In this document: piece by piece, positions 1,902 to 12,351 of the stretch
Numbering within the stretch: the stretch's first letter is position 1
Layout: each line of letters begins with the position of its first letter
Source of the DNA: Spartobacteria bacterium
GTDB lineage: Bacteria > Verrucomicrobiota > Verrucomicrobiia > Chthoniobacterales > UBA6821
NCBI GenBank assembly: GCA_947482345.1
Contig: CANKJN010000006.1
Span: 1-54,945, forward strand
Reading direction: 5' to 3'
Length of the DNA: 54,945 bases
The notes under the pieces: model-generated
Database searches by the model: none
Seen by the model: the letters and a program-made list of their open reading frames with translations, nothing else
What the model was told of the DNA's origin: nothing
Made by a program: the position numbers and the translations under genes

Positions 1902-3515
1902 TTAATCGGAAGATGCCGATGGCAGGAGGGGGAGACCTAGCTCTGCCAAGAATTCGTTGTGCTTCGCCGTTGCCTTATGGATGGCTTCCTCGATTTTTAC
2001 CAACTCGCCGTGCGTTGCCTCTAGGTTGATCTCAGGTTGGGCCTCCGCTGTGCTGATGTAGCGGGAGATGTTGAGGTTGAAGTCATGCTTCTCGATCTCT
2101 GCCATCTCCACCCGACGGGAGTAGCGGGGCTCCTCAGTACGGCTCTGGTAGGTCTCGATAATCTTCGCGATATCCTCGTCACGCAGGCGGTTCTGGCGTT
2201 TGCCTTTCACGAAGTGCTCGGCGGCGTTGATGAAAAGCACGTCGTCGGGCTTCTTGCATTTCTTGAGCACGAGGATGCAGACGGGGATTCCGGTGGAGTA
2301 GAAGAGATTGGCTGGCAGGCCGATGACGGTATCGATGTGGCCGTCCTTGAGCAGTTTGGTGCGGATGCGTTCCTCGGCTCCGCCACGGAAGAGCACGCCG
2401 TGCGGCAGGATGATGGCCATCACGCCTTCGTCTTTGAGGTAGTGGAAGCCGTGCAACAGGAAGGCGAAGTCAGCGGCGGACTTGGGGGCGAGGCCGTGGC
2501 TTTTGAAGCGCACGTCGTCGGCCAGCGCGTCGGTGGGTTCCCAACGAAGGCTGAAGGGAGCATTGGCCACGATGGCGTCGAAACTCGGCTTCTTGGCCGG
2601 GTTCTGCTCCCGCATCATGTCCCATTCGTTGAGAAGGGTGTCGCCGTGGAAGATCTCAAACTCCGAGTCCTTCACCCCGTGCAGCAGCATGTTCATGCGG
2701 GCCAGGTTGTAGGTGGTGATGTTTTTCTCCTGGCCGAAGATCTTGCCGATGGTGCCGCCGGCCTTGTTCATCCTTTTGCGGACATTGAGAATCAGCGAGC
2801 CGGACCCGCAGGCGAAGTCCAGCACACTTTCCAGGCGTTTCTTGAGGCCGGTCTTCGGTTCCTGGCTGTCCAGCGTGACGATGGCGGAGAGGATATCGGA
2901 CATCTGTTGCGGGGTGTAAAACTCGCCAGCCTTCTTGCCGGACCCCGCGGCAAACTGACCGATCAGGTATTCATAGGCATCGCCCAGAGCGTCGATGTCC
3001 GTGGAGAAATCAGCCAATCCCTCGGCGATCTTCTGGATGATGGTGCAGAGCTTGGCATTCCGATCCGCATAGGTCTTGCCTAGCTTGGGGGAACTCAGGT
3101 CGATCTCCGAGAACAGGCCCTGGAAGGTGCTCTCAAAGGATTCTGTCTCGATGTATTTGAAGCCCGCTTGCAGCGTGTTCAGCAGCTCCGCATTCTGGGT
3201 GCGGGCCTGGTTGGCGATGCTGTTCCAGAGGTGTGCGGGCTGGATGACGTAATGCACCTTACGGCGCATCTGCTTTTCGAACTCCGGGATGTCGTCCACG
3301 TTGTTCGCATACCAGAGCGCCAGAGGCACCTTGCGGGTGTCGTCGCCCACTTCGGGGTAATCCCTCCCCAGTTCCTTCTTCGCTGCCGTCTCATAGTTGT
3401 CGGAGAGGTAGCGCAGGAAGAGGAAGGAGAGCATGTAGTCACGGAAGTCATCCGCATCCATCGCCCCGCGTAGTTGGTCGGCGATGCTCCAAAGGGTATT
3501 GCCCAGTTGAGTCAT
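1902..3515 (-). CDS. hsdM: Type I restriction-modification system, DNA methyltransferase subunit
   Basis: HsdM-type N-terminus (LGNTLWSIADQLRGAMDADDFRDYMLSFLFLRYLS), SAM motif DFACGSGSL, catalytic NAPF motif (VANAPFSLRW). Confidence 0.95.
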   Translation of the reverse strand: MTQLGNTLWSIADQLRGAMDADDFRDYMLSFLFLRYLSDNYETAAKKELGRDYPEVGDDTRKVPLALWYANNVDDIPEFEKQMRRKVHYVIQPAHLWNSIANQARTQNAELLNTLQAGFKYIETESFESTFQGLFSEIDLSSPKLGKTYADRNAKLCTIIQKIAEGLADFSTDIDALGDAYEYLIGQFAAGSGKKAGEFYTPQQMSDILSAIVTLDSQEPKTGLKKRLESVLDFACGSGSLILNVRKRMNKAGGTIGKIFGQEKNITTYNLARMNMLLHGVKDSEFEIFHGDTLLNEWDMMREQNPAKKPSFDAIVANAPFSLRWEPTDALADDVRFKSHGLAPKSAADFAFLLHGFHYLKDEGVMAIILPHGVLFRGGAEERIRTKLLKDGHIDTVIGLPANLFYSTGIPVCILVLKKCKKPDDVLFINAAEHFVKGKRQNRLRDEDIAKIIETYQSRTEEPRYSRRVEMAEIEKHDFNLNISRYISTAEAQPEINLEATHGELVKIEEAIHKATAKHNEFLAELGLPLLPSASSD

Positions 3516-3549
3516 AGAATTGAGAAGTGAGAATTTTGAAGTGAGAAAG

Positions 3550-3909
3550 TCATGGAGATTTCAGTTTTTTGACGATGGTTGTGAGGATGGCGACAAGTTG
3601 ATTCGCCTCGTCGAGGAGGGGTGTGAGTTGCCGTTCTGGGAGAATATCCGCAGCGAGGAGGAGGCGCAGCCAATAGTGGGTTTCGCGGGCTTCTTTGAGT
3701 GAAATAGAGACTTTGGAAAGAAAATCGGCGCGGCTTTGTCCACCCTTGGATTCTTCCAGATTGGCACCGACTGAAGTGCCGGAACGCAATAGCTGATTTG
3801 CCAAAGTCCGCGACACTCCCGGTTTCTCGTCCAACACTTGACACAGCTTTATTACCCGCACCGCAAAGGTAAAGGCACGTTCTGCAATTTCCTGTGGCTC
3901 CTCACTCAT
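3550..3909 (-). CDS. Four-helix-bundle protein (23S rRNA intervening-sequence protein family)
   Basis: AFTFAVRVIKLCQVL...LANQLLRSGTSVGANLEESKGGQSRADFLSKVSISLKEARETHYWLRLL is characteristic of the family. Confidence 0.85.
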   Translation of the reverse strand: MSEEPQEIAERAFTFAVRVIKLCQVLDEKPGVSRTLANQLLRSGTSVGANLEESKGGQSRADFLSKVSISLKEARETHYWLRLLLAADILPERQLTPLLDEANQLVAILTTIVKKLKSP

Positions 3910-3935
3910 TTTTCTAAATTCTCACTTCTCACCTC

Positions 3936-4937: not shown

Positions 4938-5085
4938 TGAAGTGAGAATTCTGAAGTGAGAAGCGAGAAATGACTGAGGTGACTTTTCTACGATCTCACT
5001 TCTCTCTTCCTCGAAAGGTTTTACCCAGTTGTTTTTGGTTGGTGGAGGTCATGCAGATCGGTAGCTGAGCAGGTTAATAAGAAAA

Positions 5086-7311
5086 TTATGGAGCTACGCC
5101 TATCACAGTGCACATGGAGGTGTAGTGAGGGAGGTCTTTCGCCTTTAGGGCTTCAATGACTTTTTTGACGGTGTTCTGCGCATTGGAAATAAAGTTTGGT
5201 TGCTGGAGAGCACGACTCCATCCCTGCAAGTGTGAAGCATCGTTAGAAAACTTCTGGATTTCTGTCTGATCAACATCCGCATCAAATAGAAGGTCGAGTT
5301 TCTTGTACCACTCTGGGACACAGGGCTTTTTGAAACCAAGGTATGCTTCGAGGAACTTACGCAGCAGGTTGGGTGAGGTATAAGCCTCATGAAGCGTTGG
5401 CGCTTGTGATGAGGAGAACTGGTGCAACTGGTCAAACACAAACTGGTATTCAGATTTGTATTTCCGAAGGAGCTTTGGAGTGTCTTCCAGCGTAGAGTGC
5501 CATAGGTGGGTGGGCTCATCTCGGTATCGCCGAGTGTAGTAAGAGCACGCATCGCCGCGATTGGTATAGTTTGGCTTCAAAAACCAATCATCCTTTAACA
5601 GTGTGTAAAGCTCACTGTTGTGCGTGGAGACAAAAATCTGTAAACACGGCTCCAGCTTTTTTGTGATCAACGCATAAATGGCGTAGATGTGGTTCGAATC
5701 GAGACTGGAAATGGGGTCGTCGATGAAGACAATCGTTTGATTTAGTGACGCGCCGTTGTTCTCAAGTGTAGCAAGGAAATAGGCAAAGGTGATGGCGGTC
5801 TTTTCGCCTTCGCTAAGGTTGCTGGCTGGTGCCCCATCGCGCCGAAACTCAAATGAGCCTCCGGGGATTTCAGCAACTGAGATGTTGTTGTCCGGCAGAA
5901 GAAACTGAACCGTCTCGTTGATCTTTTGCGCTGCGATGGATTGCTGCTGAATCTTCGCCTCGATTGCCGCCTTCTTGCCTGCAATCCTATTTAGTGAATC
6001 TTGCGCTGCATTGACCTGATCCATGGCGGCTTCAATTGCCGATTCCCTGCCTAGGACATTGTTGTCCTTGTAAAAGCTCGCAGCATGATGCTTATCGACT
6101 GCCCCTTTAGCAGCTCTTTTCTCAACGTCGATCTGTGTGCGCTTTTGATTGTGGTCTGTGACAAGCGCGTTGATGTCCAACACGAGCTGCTCAATTTCAG
6201 AGGCGCGGCCGGTAGCGACAACGCAAGCGAGCGGAGTTTCCAGGCTTAACTGCTTCAGCTTAGCAAGCTGTGTGAGTTCACCGACCGCCGCCCTTGCCCA
6301 AGTGGCCCATTCTTCGATCCTAGTCTTCAACGCAACAAACTGCGCCCGTAGGTCTGGAACAAAGTCACGTTCATCGGGAAGCTTAATGACCAGCTCTGCT
6401 TCTTCAAGTGTGGCGACTTGAGAAGCCACTTCTGCGGTTAAATCTTCGTAAGCTTCGGAGAAGTGCTTTTGCAGGGCGGTGAGACGCTCCTCAGGAATTT
6501 CTGATCCACAGAATTCGCACTGCGACGAACCCACATGATGCGACAGGCCTGTTCGTATCCATGATTCTAGGTCACGATTTTCTTTCAGTTTGGTTATGGC
6601 CTCGTTCGATGCGGTCTTCTGCATTACCGCTTGCAAGGTTAACCGCAAAGCGTCTGGATTCTCTGCTGGAGCGTTCACAGTATTGATGTTAGCCCATTGT
6701 TCTGTGCTGTGGACTAGCGCCACCTTTGCTTGGAGGTCCTTCTCGGTGAGAATAAAAGCGTCTGGCGTCGCTTTGACTCGATCAATTTCAGCTACGAGTT
6801 TGGTGCGGTTATAGGTTCTGTCTCCTGTTAAGGTGCCAAAAGACCTGGCATGATTTGTCCCTAACGAATCAAGTTCGTTTTGTAGCCGCCGGTGGTTCTC
6901 GGAGAGCCGTTCTTTGATACCTACAATTTTCGTCTCGTGCTCATTCAAACGACCAATTCGATTGCGCAGGTGGATGGTATTGCCGCCGACAATGAATACT
7001 GAAGGGGCTTGATGTTCCTGTAGAAAGTTGCGCTGAATGAAGTCGCGGTTAAAGACCTTTATGCGCGGAGGATTCGCCAGATTGGCGTGCGTCATTGTAG
7101 CTCCGCCTTGAAGCTCAACCTCGAACTGGCTTCCCTGCCACTGTGCGATTTGGTTTGGTTCAGCAAGAATCTGAAACAGCCGAGACAGCGTGGTTTTTCC
7201 CGAGTAATTCCAGCCGTAGATAAGGTTGCGCTTGGCAAAGGGAGTTGTGCCGCCCCATTGAAATTGGCGGTAGTTCCCGAAGTTCGTGAGGCGGTTGATT
7301 CTGCAGATCAT
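5086..7311 (-). CDS. RloC-like AAA ATPase, candidate wobble-nucleotide-excising tRNase (anticodon nuclease)
   Basis: Walker A GWNYSGKTT, ABC-like signature NLSEGEKTAITF, Walker B TIVFIDDPISSLDSNH, CxxC zinc-hook-like CEFC between coiled-coil-like segments, C-terminal R-x3-E (RKFLE) with a downstream His; located inside an hsd locus. Confidence 0.65.
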   Translation of the reverse strand: MICRINRLTNFGNYRQFQWGGTTPFAKRNLIYGWNYSGKTTLSRLFQILAEPNQIAQWQGSQFEVELQGGATMTHANLANPPRIKVFNRDFIQRNFLQEHQAPSVFIVGGNTIHLRNRIGRLNEHETKIVGIKERLSENHRRLQNELDSLGTNHARSFGTLTGDRTYNRTKLVAEIDRVKATPDAFILTEKDLQAKVALVHSTEQWANINTVNAPAENPDALRLTLQAVMQKTASNEAITKLKENRDLESWIRTGLSHHVGSSQCEFCGSEIPEERLTALQKHFSEAYEDLTAEVASQVATLEEAELVIKLPDERDFVPDLRAQFVALKTRIEEWATWARAAVGELTQLAKLKQLSLETPLACVVATGRASEIEQLVLDINALVTDHNQKRTQIDVEKRAAKGAVDKHHAASFYKDNNVLGRESAIEAAMDQVNAAQDSLNRIAGKKAAIEAKIQQQSIAAQKINETVQFLLPDNNISVAEIPGGSFEFRRDGAPASNLSEGEKTAITFAYFLATLENNGASLNQTIVFIDDPISSLDSNHIYAIYALITKKLEPCLQIFVSTHNSELYTLLKDDWFLKPNYTNRGDACSYYTRRYRDEPTHLWHSTLEDTPKLLRKYKSEYQFVFDQLHQFSSSQAPTLHEAYTSPNLLRKFLEAYLGFKKPCVPEWYKKLDLLFDADVDQTEIQKFSNDASHLQGWSRALQQPNFISNAQNTVKKVIEALKAKDLPHYTSMCTVIGVAP

Positions 7312-7314
7312 GAT

Positions 7315-8637
7315 TCAATTATCCTCTGGGGATGGGAAAAGCTGCTGCATCAGGCCTTTCTTGTGGGTCTTGAGGGCTTCGTGCTTTTGGGTTTGCGCGG
7401 CGATGAGGTCGTCGAGGCTGGTGAGGCAGTCGGCGATGCGTTGTTGTTCGGCTATTCTGGGACAGTGGATCTCAAACTCCTTTATGCCCTGAGTCGTTAG
7501 GTTCGTGAAAACTCCTCCGTGTGTTGCTCCGCGTTCAAACTGGTTGCGAAGCGTACTCAATGTATGGAATAGAAAATCCTTATCCGCTTGCAACTCGTCT
7601 ATATCCACGAGTGCCAAGAAACCGTCGTGAATACAGGCGTCGACTGCCAGAAACGATACGATTCCAACCACCCCCGAGCAGACGATCGTTAGAGTTCCGG
7701 CTGGGCAAGGTCGGCTCATTGTTGCGCCTTCCTCGGTGAGTGAATCAATGCGAGGCGTAACCCATTTTCCATCTCGTGTGACATCCTGCACCATCAGTCG
7801 AGGAACAGGACCGCCAAAGAAACGAGGATCACCCTGTGGTCGAGGGCTAGAGCCTCTGATAACACGACTGATTTCATCCAATCGCACCCGCACCCACTCC
7901 CCGGCGTTTTGGAATTCGGGGAAGCGGAGGCGGGGTTGGGTTTCGCCTTCGCGGGGGAAAAGCTGCTGCATCAGCCCTTTTTTATGGGTCTTGAGCGCGT
8001 CCACTTTCCGCGCTTGCGCGGCCATCAGCTGGTCCACCGAACTCAGGCACTCGGCGATTTTTTGTTGTTCGGGTTCGTCTGGCCGAGGTGCGGCGGTGAA
8101 GAGGAATTGGGAGATAGAGATATTAAATCGCCCCGCTCTGGCACCTTCGTTTACTAAGCCACGCAGAGCCGCCTCATGGCTTCCAGATTCGAAATACCAT
8201 TCCCAAAAGACCGGGTTCTCGTCCGAGTGGAAGCGGAAGCACTTGTAGATCGGCGAAACGATTCCACCTTCATATTTGGACAGTCGTTTGATGGTGCCAA
8301 AGGTCGAGGCCTTTGTGGTTCTGTCGTTATAGACGAAGTCATTGCGGAGAAGTTTGAGGTATCTTTCCGCACTATCTCCCGCGATCTTTTTGCCGAAATA
8401 GTCGCTTTGAAGGACAAGGCCATGTTCGCCCGAGAGGCTCAATATATTATCTGCATCGCCCGTTACTGCCCTGTCAGATACGGGCCGGGCAATCTTCTGG
8501 AGTTGTGCCACCTTCCATCCTGCCAACTTCCGAAACTCCGGGAACCGCAGCTTCGGCACCAGCGCGGGCGTTGCCTCTTCCTTTTGGGTCTCACACGAAG
8601 ACACGAAGGCACGAAGGTTTTTGGATTTCTTAATCAT
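7315..8637 (-). CDS. hsdS: Type I restriction-modification specificity subunit
   Basis: Two TRD halves each ending in a conserved repeat (ALKTHKKGLMQQLFP...) and PRLRFPEF repeats. ATG at 8637 preferred over the ORF-track start at 8706. Confidence 0.9.
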   Translation of the reverse strand: MIKKSKNLRAFVSSCETQKEEATPALVPKLRFPEFRKLAGWKVAQLQKIARPVSDRAVTGDADNILSLSGEHGLVLQSDYFGKKIAGDSAERYLKLLRNDFVYNDRTTKASTFGTIKRLSKYEGGIVSPIYKCFRFHSDENPVFWEWYFESGSHEAALRGLVNEGARAGRFNISISQFLFTAAPRPDEPEQQKIAECLSSVDQLMAAQARKVDALKTHKKGLMQQLFPREGETQPRLRFPEFQNAGEWVRVRLDEISRVIRGSSPRPQGDPRFFGGPVPRLMVQDVTRDGKWVTPRIDSLTEEGATMSRPCPAGTLTIVCSGVVGIVSFLAVDACIHDGFLALVDIDELQADKDFLFHTLSTLRNQFERGATHGGVFTNLTTQGIKEFEIHCPRIAEQQRIADCLTSLDDLIAAQTQKHEALKTHKKGLMQQLFPSPEDN

Positions 8638-8795
8638 GACATTCCCTCTTCTTCTTCGCGGCTTCGTGGCTTCGCGTGCGATTTTCCCCGAAACTCGGGA
8701 AACCATAGCTTCGGCACCAGCGCGGGCGTTGCCTCTTCCTTTTGGGTCTCACACGAAGACACGAAGGCACGAAGGGGTTTTGTTCTGGAACTCAT
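8634..8795 (-). pseudogene. Truncated duplicate of the hsdS 5' end (53-aa ORF)
   Basis: Translates to MSSRTKPLRAFVSSCETQKEEATPALVPKLWFPEFRGKSHAKPRSREEEEGMS*, near-identical to the HsdS N-terminus; overlaps its neighbours by ATGA junctions. Confidence 0.7.
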
Positions 8796-9283
8796 TGCAA
8801 TCCTCCTTCTTCTTCGTGGCTTCGTGCCTTCGTGTGAGTTTCCTGATTCAGTCTGAGTCGCGAGTTTTCAAATGACTGCGGCCCATTGAGGATGCGTTTG
8901 CAGCCGTCTTTGAAGGTGGATGCCCCGAAATTGATGAGAAGTCCCAACGGGAGACCGAGCAGACGAAGGTAGGTGAGAACTTGTTTGGAATGGACTGGAA
9001 GCAGATTCTCAACCGACTTCAGTTCGATCAAAAGTCGGTCTTCGACGATGATGTCGGCACGAAACCCTTCTTCAAAAGTCATTCCCATGAGCCGAATCGG
9101 CACGGGCACCTGCCGTTTCACAGTCAGACCTTGATCGGCAAGCATCTTTGCCAGAACCACCTCATAAACCGTTTCCAGTAAACCCGGCCCAGCCTCAACA
9201 TGCAGCTTGTAGCCACAGTCCACCACAATAGCGGATAACTCTTCCACATCCCTTCGCGCCTTCGTGTCTTCGTGTGAGTTCAA
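8792..9283 (-). CDS. GxxExxY protein
   Basis: HVEAGPGLLETVYEVVLAKMLADQGLTVKRQVPVPI...ADIIVEDRLLIELKSVENLLPVHSKQVLTYLRLLGLPLGLLINFG. Confidence 0.9.
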   Translation of the reverse strand: MNSHEDTKARRDVEELSAIVVDCGYKLHVEAGPGLLETVYEVVLAKMLADQGLTVKRQVPVPIRLMGMTFEEGFRADIIVEDRLLIELKSVENLLPVHSKQVLTYLRLLGLPLGLLINFGASTFKDGCKRILNGPQSFENSRLRLNQETHTKARSHEEEGGLQ

Positions 9284-12200
9284 GATTCGTAAGCGCTGAG
9301 TCCGGAAATGTCGCGGCCACCGGCGCGTTTGGTGAGGAGGGGGTGGAGATCGGCCATGAGGGCGAGTTCGGCCTGGGTGCGGGCTTTCCAGGCGAGGTCG
9401 AGCGGCTCCAAAAGTTGGGTGAGCTGCTCTCCATCAAAGATCATGCGGTCAAGGATGCCCTCCACGAAGGCCTGCAAGGCGGCCGTGCCCAATCCGTGCT
9501 TACTGGCGATGGAGGCGAGTTCCTTAGCGTTCTTCTCTGCCTTGAAACGGGTGTAGCCGTCGCGGATGGCGGTTTCGCTGAGACCTTCGCCCGCCTGGAG
9601 CGTGCCGATGTATTCGGCGATGTCGTCGCGCTCGTTCATGAACTTGGCATCGGCGCTGATGAGGCCGATGAGTTCCTCGCGGGTCATCTTGGACTTGCCG
9701 GGCTTCTGCTCTGAGAAGCGGGCGATGAGGCCCATGATGTAGTCGTAGTCGATGACGGCGGAGGCAAAGAGGACGAACTCGAAGTCGATCTGATCCACGG
9801 GATCCTCTGAGTCTTGTTTCTCTCCAGTTTTACCCTGCTGCTCTTTGAGCTTCTTAGCGGTCTCCAGATACTGACCTTTGAAACCGCGCAGGTTTTCTTC
9901 CGGCAGTACCTGCGCGATGGCGGATTTGTTCTCCTCGGTGAGGTCGGTGTATTGGTCGAGCTGGGTCTTTAGCCGCTGGACTTCCTTGAAGCGCTCGATG
10001 AAGACGACCTTGGCGGCGTCACCCTTCAGGTTGGGAACGGAGGAAGGTGTGCAGTCGAGTCCCTGGGACTTCATGAAGGCGTCGAGCTTCTGCACCGCAG
10101 TCTCCAGCTTCTGGATAACGACGGGGGCCTTCTCCACGAGCCAGATTTCCCGTGCCTGCTCACTGGACTTCTCCCCGCTAAAGAGGGCAATGGCGGCATC
10201 CACGGAATCCTGCTGCTGGCGGAAGTCGAGGATGTTCCCGTAGGGCTTAGTGCCATTGAGCACGCGGTTGGTACGCGAGAACGCCTGAATCAAGCCGTGG
10301 TGCCGCAGGTTCTTGTCCACGTAGAGCGTGTTCAGGAACTTGGAATCAAAGCCGGTGAGCAACATGTCCACGACGATGGTGATGTCGATCTTGTGGGCGT
10401 GCGGGAAATCAGCGTTGGGCCACTGCTGGTCTTTGATGCGCTTCTGCACATCCTGATAGTAGAGGTCGAACTCGCCGATGCGGTGATTGGTGCCGTAGCG
10501 GACGTTGTAATCGGCAAGGATTACCTTGAGCGCGGCTTTCTTCCCCTCGGGGTCCACCTCATTGTCTGCCTGCTCCTGCGGCAGATCTTCCTGAATCTGC
10601 TTCACATCGGGATTCCCCTCGGCGGGCGGGGAGAAGACGCAGGCGATATTCAGCGGCTTGAACCCGGGATCAGCGGCCTGTTGCTCTTGTTCACGTTGGG
10701 CCTGCATGGTCTTGAACAGAGCATGGTATTCGATGGCGTCGTTGATGGATGAGGTGGCGAGGATGGCATTGAAGCGGCGTCCACCGGTGGCGGCGTCGTG
10801 CTTGGAGAGGATCGCCTCGATGACGGCTTTCTTCGCGATGGCCTCGCCGGGCTTGGGCGGGTTTTTTCCCTCGGGCTTGAAGTAATCGATATGGAAGCGC
10901 AGGACGTTTGCGTCTTCGATGGCGTGGGTGATGGTGTAGGCGTGGAGCTGCTTCTGGAAGAGGTCCGCCGTGGTGCGCATGGAGGCCTGCTCGTCCTCGA
11001 TCTTATGAAGGGAGGCATTGGCATCAAAGATGGGTGTGCCGGTGAAGCCGAAGAGCTGAGCCTTAGGGAAGAACTCTTTGATCGCCTTGTGGTTCTCCCC
11101 GAACTGCGAGCGGTGGCACTCATCGAAGATGAAGACGATGCGTTTGTCGCTGAGCGAAGCCAACATCTCCTTGTAGGTGGGCTGGTCGTTCTTCTTCCGC
11201 TGCTGGTTGCGCTTGCTGCTCTCATCCAGCGCGAGGCCGAGCTTCTGGATGGTGGTGACGATGACTTTGTCCGCGTAGTCCTCAGACAGGAGGCGACGGA
11301 CGAGGGCGGCGGTGTTGGTATTCTCCTCGACGCAGCCCTCCTGGAAGCGGTTGAACTCCTCGCGCGTCTGGCGGTCGAGGTCCTTGCGATCCACGACGAA
11401 GACGCATTTGTGGATGTGGTCGTTCTCCTTGAGCAGGGTGGAGGCCTTGAAGGAGGTGAGTGTTTTGCCGCTGCCGGTGGTGTGCCAGATGAAGCCGTTG
11501 CCGTTGTCCTCGTCGATGCACTTCACCAGGTGCTGTACGGCATAGACCTGATAGGGCCGCATGATCATGAGCTTCTGCTCTCCGGCGAGCAGCACCATGT
11601 AGCGGCTGATGGTCCTGCCGAGGTCGCACTTCTTCAGGAAGCACGCCGCGAACTCGTCGAGGTGGGTGATCTTGTGGTTGTCCTCGGCGGCGAACTCGTA
11701 GATGGGCAGGAAGCGCTCGTCGGCATTGAAGGCAAAGTGGCGGGCGTTGTTGTTAGCGAAGTAGTAGGTGCGGTCGCGGTTGCTGACGATGAAGAGCTGC
11801 ATGAAGCAGAGCAGCGTCTTCGCGTAGCCGTTGCCGGGGTCATTCTTGTAGTCGACGATCTGCTCCATGGCCCGGCGGGGATTCACCCCAAGGGTCTTGA
11901 GCTCGATCTGGACACAGGGTACGCCGTTGATGAGTAGGATCACATCATAACGATGGTGGCTGTAGTCGGTATTGATACGGAGCTGGTGGACGACCTCGAA
12001 GTGGTTTTTGCACCAGTCCTTGAGGTTCACCAGGGAGTAGTTCAGCGGCGTGCCATCGTCGCGAGTGAAGCTATTGATACTGCGCAGGGTCTTGGATGCA
12101 GTGAAGACATCCGATGCAACGATCTCATCGAGCAGGCGGGCAAACTCTGCATCGGTGAGAGTGACGCGATTCAGGGCCTCGAACTTCTCGCGGAAGTTAC

Positions 12201-12351
12201 GCTCCAGCGAGGCCCTGTCTTGAATATCGGACCGGTATTCATATTTCAGGCTCCGGAGTTTTTCGATGAAGGAGTCCTCAATATCTCCCTCGCGGACAAC
12301 AGCTCTTTGCGATGGAGCAGAGAGCCCGTCTGGATAGGTGGAGGAAGTCAT
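9280..12351 (-). CDS. hsdR: Type I restriction endonuclease subunit R
   Basis: HsdR N-terminal nuclease region (YDVILLINGVPCVQIELK), SF2 helicase motifs (TTGSGKT, DECHRSQFG, FTGTPI). Confidence 0.95.
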   Translation of the reverse strand: MTSSTYPDGLSAPSQRAVVREGDIEDSFIEKLRSLKYEYRSDIQDRASLERNFREKFEALNRVTLTDAEFARLLDEIVASDVFTASKTLRSINSFTRDDGTPLNYSLVNLKDWCKNHFEVVHQLRINTDYSHHRYDVILLINGVPCVQIELKTLGVNPRRAMEQIVDYKNDPGNGYAKTLLCFMQLFIVSNRDRTYYFANNNARHFAFNADERFLPIYEFAAEDNHKITHLDEFAACFLKKCDLGRTISRYMVLLAGEQKLMIMRPYQVYAVQHLVKCIDEDNGNGFIWHTTGSGKTLTSFKASTLLKENDHIHKCVFVVDRKDLDRQTREEFNRFQEGCVEENTNTAALVRRLLSEDYADKVIVTTIQKLGLALDESSKRNQQRKKNDQPTYKEMLASLSDKRIVFIFDECHRSQFGENHKAIKEFFPKAQLFGFTGTPIFDANASLHKIEDEQASMRTTADLFQKQLHAYTITHAIEDANVLRFHIDYFKPEGKNPPKPGEAIAKKAVIEAILSKHDAATGGRRFNAILATSSINDAIEYHALFKTMQAQREQEQQAADPGFKPLNIACVFSPPAEGNPDVKQIQEDLPQEQADNEVDPEGKKAALKVILADYNVRYGTNHRIGEFDLYYQDVQKRIKDQQWPNADFPHAHKIDITIVVDMLLTGFDSKFLNTLYVDKNLRHHGLIQAFSRTNRVLNGTKPYGNILDFRQQQDSVDAAIALFSGEKSSEQAREIWLVEKAPVVIQKLETAVQKLDAFMKSQGLDCTPSSVPNLKGDAAKVVFIERFKEVQRLKTQLDQYTDLTEENKSAIAQVLPEENLRGFKGQYLETAKKLKEQQGKTGEKQDSEDPVDQIDFEFVLFASAVIDYDYIMGLIARFSEQKPGKSKMTREELIGLISADAKFMNERDDIAEYIGTLQAGEGLSETAIRDGYTRFKAEKNAKELASIASKHGLGTAALQAFVEGILDRMIFDGEQLTQLLEPLDLAWKARTQAELALMADLHPLLTKRAGGRDISGLSAYES

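Follow-up and report, generated by a model that had tools for sequence, protein, structure and literature searches.

Our results indicate that a gene in the window (the whole stretch of 54,945 nt from a Spartobacteria bacterium that was analysed) very probably codes for an anticodon nuclease of the RloC family, in which an ATP-driven sensor is joined to a HEPN RNase and which would act as a second line of defence behind the restriction-modification (R-M) enzyme of the same operon. Judged by its genes and their order, this operon is a type I hsd operon of the lineage that carries PrrC, with rloC in PrrC's slot.

RloC has been described before, sometimes linked to hsd and RhuM genes (PMC2610378, PMC3710099). 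Defence genes embedded in R-M operons, and their discovery by guilt by embedding, have also been described (PMC12255303, PMC10855318). A limited search, in a literature collection with no preprints and few subscription papers, returned no description of RloC replacing PrrC on one hsd lineage. PrrC answers to its restriction enzyme, and RloC, via its Rad50-like part, to DNA breaks. A natural exchange of the two on one hsd scaffold offers a clean comparison of their triggers and bears on the open question of how such nucleases are switched on.

An RloC-like protein with a PrrC-type nuclease domain

RloC was defined by ABC motifs, a CxxC hook in a coiled-coil insert, an R-x3-E-x36-52-H triad in which Ser often precedes the His, and a length of 658-897 aa (PMC2610378). 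As far as sequence can tell, the 741-aa protein of the window has every one of these features. Walker A, signature, Walker B/D-loop and switch histidine are all present and conserved (Table 1). The insert that splits the ATPase is predicted to be a coiled coil with a zinc hook, both from the CxxC motif and from the long helices of a structural model (residues 110-162, 319-355, 372-416 and 419-471). The triad reads R651-x3-E655-x38-H694, with 38 residues between Glu655 and His694, and Ser693 before the latter. The initial annotation had proposed an RloC-like protein from the GWNYSGKT, LSEGEK and Walker B motifs, all of which proved conserved in homologues, and from a CEFC pair, an RKFLE string and a downstream histidine, which lie exactly at the positions it gave.

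Table 1. The type I R-M operon and the motifs of its rloC-like gene (window coordinates; invariance counted in a 28-protein alignment).
Feature	Positions	Strand	Details
hsdR, 1023 aa, restriction subunit	9280-12351	-	EcoR124-type C terminus PF12008; 63-68% identical to HsdR of PrrC operons
small PDDEXK_3 gene, 163 aa, TTG start	8792-9283	-	PF13366 E=3e-35; between hsdR and hsdS
hsdS, 463 aa	7315-8706	-	PADLOC Specificity_I over residues 43-458
rloC-like gene, 741 aa, ATG start	5086-7311	-	ABC/Rad50-like ATPase, split by a coiled coil with zinc hook, and C-terminal HEPN-type predicted anticodon-nuclease domain
Walker A GWNYSGKT, residues 33-40	7192-7215	-	G33, N35, G38, K39 invariant
zinc-hook motif CEFC, residues 265-268	6508-6519	-	C265 27/27, C268 28/28
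ABC signature LSEGEK, residues 499-504	5800-5817	-	S500, G502, E503 28/28
Walker B/D-loop TIVFIDDPISSLD, residues 526-538	5698-5736	-	D531, D532, P533, S536, D538 28/28
switch histidine H564 (STHN)	5620-5622	-	28/28
nuclease-triad R651-x3-E655 (RKFLE)	5347-5361	-	R 28/28, E 27/28; in register with PrrC R-x3-E
triad His694, Ser693 before it	5230-5232	-	H 27/28, S 26/28; in register with PrrC SH
rhuM-family gene, 333 aa	3936-4937	-	PF13310 E=5e-108; PADLOC PDC-S05 1e-144; between rloC and hsdM
23S rRNA-intervening-sequence protein gene, 119 aa	3550-3909	-	PF05635 E=2e-21
hsdM, 537 aa, adenine methyltransferase subunit	1902-3515	-	TIGR00497 395 bits, over cut-off; 70-73% identical to HsdM of PrrC operons (see text)

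The protein contains three R-x3-E strings (at 142, 595 and 651). Since it is R651 and E655 that are conserved across 28 homologues, together with S693 and H694, this match to the triad is more than chance. The near-invariant residues beyond the ATPase are E621, N648, R651, E655, S693 and H694, and the conservation of triad and hook repeats in an alignment of 36 rows, 35 of which are homologues from viral contigs. The residues that the initial annotation had named as catalytic are thus kept in near and far relatives, which come from GTDB genomes, plasmids, phages and viral contigs and are about 24-82% identical. The viral-contig relatives were recovered by a profile; scans of these contigs with single proteins as query found no relative. 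One prophage gene annotated as RloC (Streptococcus phage Javan105, 4543-6804 of locus L026) lacks the conserved triad His in the alignment.

Profile searches, which the initial annotation had suggested, agree with this assignment. Pfam AAA_13 covers residues 11-717 (E=4e-121), the protein belongs to the PADLOC profile PDC-S06 (PDLC04896; E=2e-223, 742 bits), and the PADLOC PrrC profile matches residues 485-724 (E=7e-16). In a comparison by hhalign with 16 PrrC proteins, from genomes of the phylum of an Ignavibacteria locus discussed below (L002), the probability was 98.7%, and R651, E655 and S693-H694 fell on the R-x3-E...SH of PrrC; the C-terminal part alone gave E=2e-5. The claim that the triad is shared with PrrC was therefore sound. 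An AlphaFold2 model built from 29 sequences (pLDDT 84, compared with 44 from 3 sequences) shows an SMC/Rad50-like head and long arms of coiled coil; its C-terminal domain is all helical, with R651 and E655 inside helix 640-661 and H694 as the last residue of helix 679-694. Alignment and model together leave no sign of a different effector fold at the C terminus, and predict there an all-helical domain homologous to the nuclease domain of PrrC. PMC3710099 assigns the nuclease domains of RloC and PrrC to the HEPN fold. Full-length Foldseek searches of the PDB and of viral models gave, among the matches listed, SMC/Rad50-type proteins, and are uninformative for the C-terminal domain. Sequence searches of the PDB, with the single protein and with a profile, returned AriA, Rad50-like heads and coiled coils matched by chance, but neither an RloC nor a PrrC structure.

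PrrC itself is ruled out as the identity of 5086-7311 by length and zinc hook, as the PrrC of EcoprrI-type operons (E. coli; Klebsiella PrrC170, PMC11555353) is a protein of 341-416 aa without the hooked coiled coil. The likeness to PrrC lies in the operon and in the nuclease domain, which is homologous and has its triad in register. The likeness to the RloC of Geobacillus kaustophilus and Acinetobacter baylyi (PMC2610378, PMC3874168) lies in the Rad50-like ATPase, the CxxC hook, the R-x3-E-x36-52-(S)H triad and the length range; the assignment rests on this shared published definition and on the homology to PrrC. The embedded AAA_13 and RhuM genes also correspond to PDC-S06 and PDC-S05, candidates obtained through guilt by embedding (PMC10855318), for which PADLOC names no mechanism.

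The gene is under purifying selection. Its dN/dS is 0.14 relative to the Ignavibacteria copy (67% identical) and 0.16 relative to a copy from Verrucomicrobiae (L001, 82% identical), and in the former comparison the nuclease part has diverged least (79% identity, against 60% for the coiled coil). One might suspect a degenerate or inactive relict, given that a mere remnant of hsdR accompanies the Verrucomicrobiae copy and shows that such operons decay. The low dN/dS, the full-length frame with complete motifs, the conservation of the nuclease part and the full-length hsdR, hsdM and hsdS make this highly improbable.

An hsd operon of the PrrC lineage

The gene lies, as the initial annotation had it, inside a type I R-M operon, whose hsdR, hsdM and hsdS are intact by full-length profile matches. 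All genes are on the minus strand and are transcribed in the order hsdR - PDDEXK_3 - hsdS - rloC - rhuM - 23S-IVP-like - hsdM. Close relatives of this operon carry PrrC, a more telling context that the initial annotation had not included. In seven such operons (L150-L153, L155, L157, L158), ordered hsdR-hsdS-prrC-hsdM, HsdR is 63-68% identical to that of the window and HsdM about 70-73% identical to the window lineage, the latter range combining one comparison with the nearer of the window and L002 proteins and another with the window protein. The linkage to a type Ic hsd locus that is typical of PrrC is hence found here as well, with an EcoR124_C domain in HsdR and the nuclease gene in the same hsdS-hsdM slot. 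In Klebsiella, an HsdR-HsdS-PrrC-HsdM operon has been shown by experiment to defend against phage (PMC11555353).

To avoid bias, operons were recruited by HsdM alone, not by the nuclease, and their neighbourhoods were then read. Among the 37 with hsdS and hsdM on one contig, prrC stood between these genes in 21 and rloC in none; plasmid members were picked from the top hits, so that the proportions are rough. Among all operons examined, rloC occupies the slot of this hsd lineage only in the window and in the Ignavibacteria operon. The hsd proteins of the other hsd-linked rloC loci examined are about 22-33% identical to those of the window. RloC had initially been said to be often linked to hsd genes, but published RloC genes are rarely in an R-M locus (8/73; PMC2610378). 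The present one differs in residing in a PrrC-type hsd operon, between hsdS and hsdM and with rhuM next after it. PrrC/RloC-type ABC-HEPN genes in R-M operons with RhuM-like genes or Doc were reported by Anantharaman et al. 2013 (PMC3710099); the exchange of RloC for PrrC on one hsd lineage does not appear in the passages of that work considered here.

The slot has other occupants. Between hsdS and hsdM of the same lineage we found Gabija (GajA, GajB; L201), SIR2-HerA (L202, L214), RhuM (L175, L214), zeta-toxin-like genes, PDDEXK genes, or nothing. The HsdM tree joins the window and five other operons in a group with support of 100/98, inside a wider set in which PrrC operons predominate; its companions carry RloC and RhuM (L002), PrrC and RhuM (L154), Gabija (L201), SIR2-HerA (L202), or a slot that is not seen (L183). 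The HsdR tree makes the Gabija operon the sister of the window, in a group otherwise mostly of PrrC operons; the placement of L002 there is unsure because of its long branch. The trees and the varied slot contents imply a quicker turnover of the cargo than of the hsd scaffold. This suggests that the hsdS-hsdM spot works like a socket in which one back-up defence can take the place of another, and the presence of Gabija and SIR2-HerA in it supports such a view of restriction operons.

Some of the related loci have peculiarities of their own. The Ignavibacteria operon is ordered hsdR - KilA-N - (MBL-like) - hsdS - rloC - rhuM - hsdM, where MBL-like is a reading of the sequence by eye, Pfam having given no match. 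In the prrC-hsdM interval of L154 (1416-4894), a fragment of hsdM, repeating its first ~45 codons, precedes a shortened rhuM and then the full hsdM; this has the look of a scar left when rhuM was inserted and the start of hsdM was duplicated in the process. The Verrucomicrobiae copy (L001, 2-2752) is an intact rloC directly behind a fragment of hsdR; the 8.3-kb contig carries no further hsd gene. It may have outlived its R-M system, or reflect a contig artefact.

Proposed function and trigger

We propose that the zinc-hooked coiled coil and the Rad50-like ATPase head restrain the C-terminal HEPN RNase domain (R651/E655/H694), and that phage attack, or the DNA damage it causes, most likely releases it. 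The freed domain would cut host tRNA at the anticodon loop and stop translation, and phages that had got past DNA restriction would then be unable to multiply. RloC in PrrC's slot would most likely be a second line of defence behind the R-M enzyme, much as the initial annotation had supposed when it spoke of a suicide tRNase. Since HEPN domains elsewhere can cut other RNAs, we only infer the tRNA target. HEPN RNases vary in their targets (PMC3710099), and tRNA-contacting residues are not defined for the RloC group, which leaves some room for an active domain directed at an RNA other than the tRNA anticodon loop. We regard this as improbable, because both RloC and PrrC, the nearest families whose activity has been tested, cleave tRNA in the anticodon loop. 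RloC is further characterised by excision of the wobble nucleotide and by its response to zinc and DNA breaks.

The trigger might follow either of two precedents. PrrC responds to the neutralisation of its linked restriction enzyme (PMC2610378), and RloC elsewhere to DNA breaks (PMC3874168). Having replaced PrrC, the RloC of the window could be silenced in the HsdRMS complex and freed, like PrrC, by phage anti-restriction proteins. It shares the slot and the hsd lineage of PrrC, its start codon comes 3 nt after the hsdS stop, and a PrrC operon of like layout is active (PMC11555353). Such control by Hsd is plausible, if tentative. Gabija, SIR2-HerA and RhuM use the same slot without known Hsd control, so that occupying it does not have to imply regulation; elsewhere, most RloC genes lie away from R-M loci and RloC is break-responsive (PMC2610378, PMC3874168); and Hsd control is not obligatory, as the 82% identical copy persists beside a mere hsdR remnant.

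We hold it somewhat likelier that RloC is an independent, self-regulated sensor of DNA breaks, a defence cassette that is embedded in the operon and simply carried along by it. If the slot argues for a trigger of the Hsd type, the zinc hook and the orphan copy argue for DNA breaks: hook and Rad50-like head are as in the break-responsive RloC (PMC3874168), and the orphan is intact. The cargo of the slot is diverse and unrelated, and the G+C content of rloC is 50.0%, compared with 58.4% for hsdM and hsdR, which fits a separate acquisition. Nevertheless, the strong preference of the slot for the sister nuclease PrrC (21/37 operons) suggests that nuclease and R-M enzyme fit each other in function, and speaks against full independence. 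A broader version of Hsd control, in which the hsdS-hsdM interval is a socket for interchangeable effectors (PrrC, RloC, Gabija, SIR2-HerA) that all use the restriction enzyme as their sensor, RloC of the window included, seems unlikely to us.

Repeats around the accessory genes

Near-identical short repeats bracket the rhuM and 23S-IVP genes (3524-3547, 3910-3935, 4939-4962 and 4984-5009; 24 nt at 96% and 26 nt at 81%), as if these genes had been inserted as cassettes. A frame at 3512-3844 was rejected as a gene, as it has no profile match and overlaps the real gene at 3550-3909. Elsewhere in the operon, a tandem duplication (154 nt, 85%; 8530-8841) involves the 5' end of hsdS, and repeats of the CACGAAG type lie on both sides of the PDDEXK_3 gene and also inside the hsdS 5' end (8530-8841, 9252-9280).
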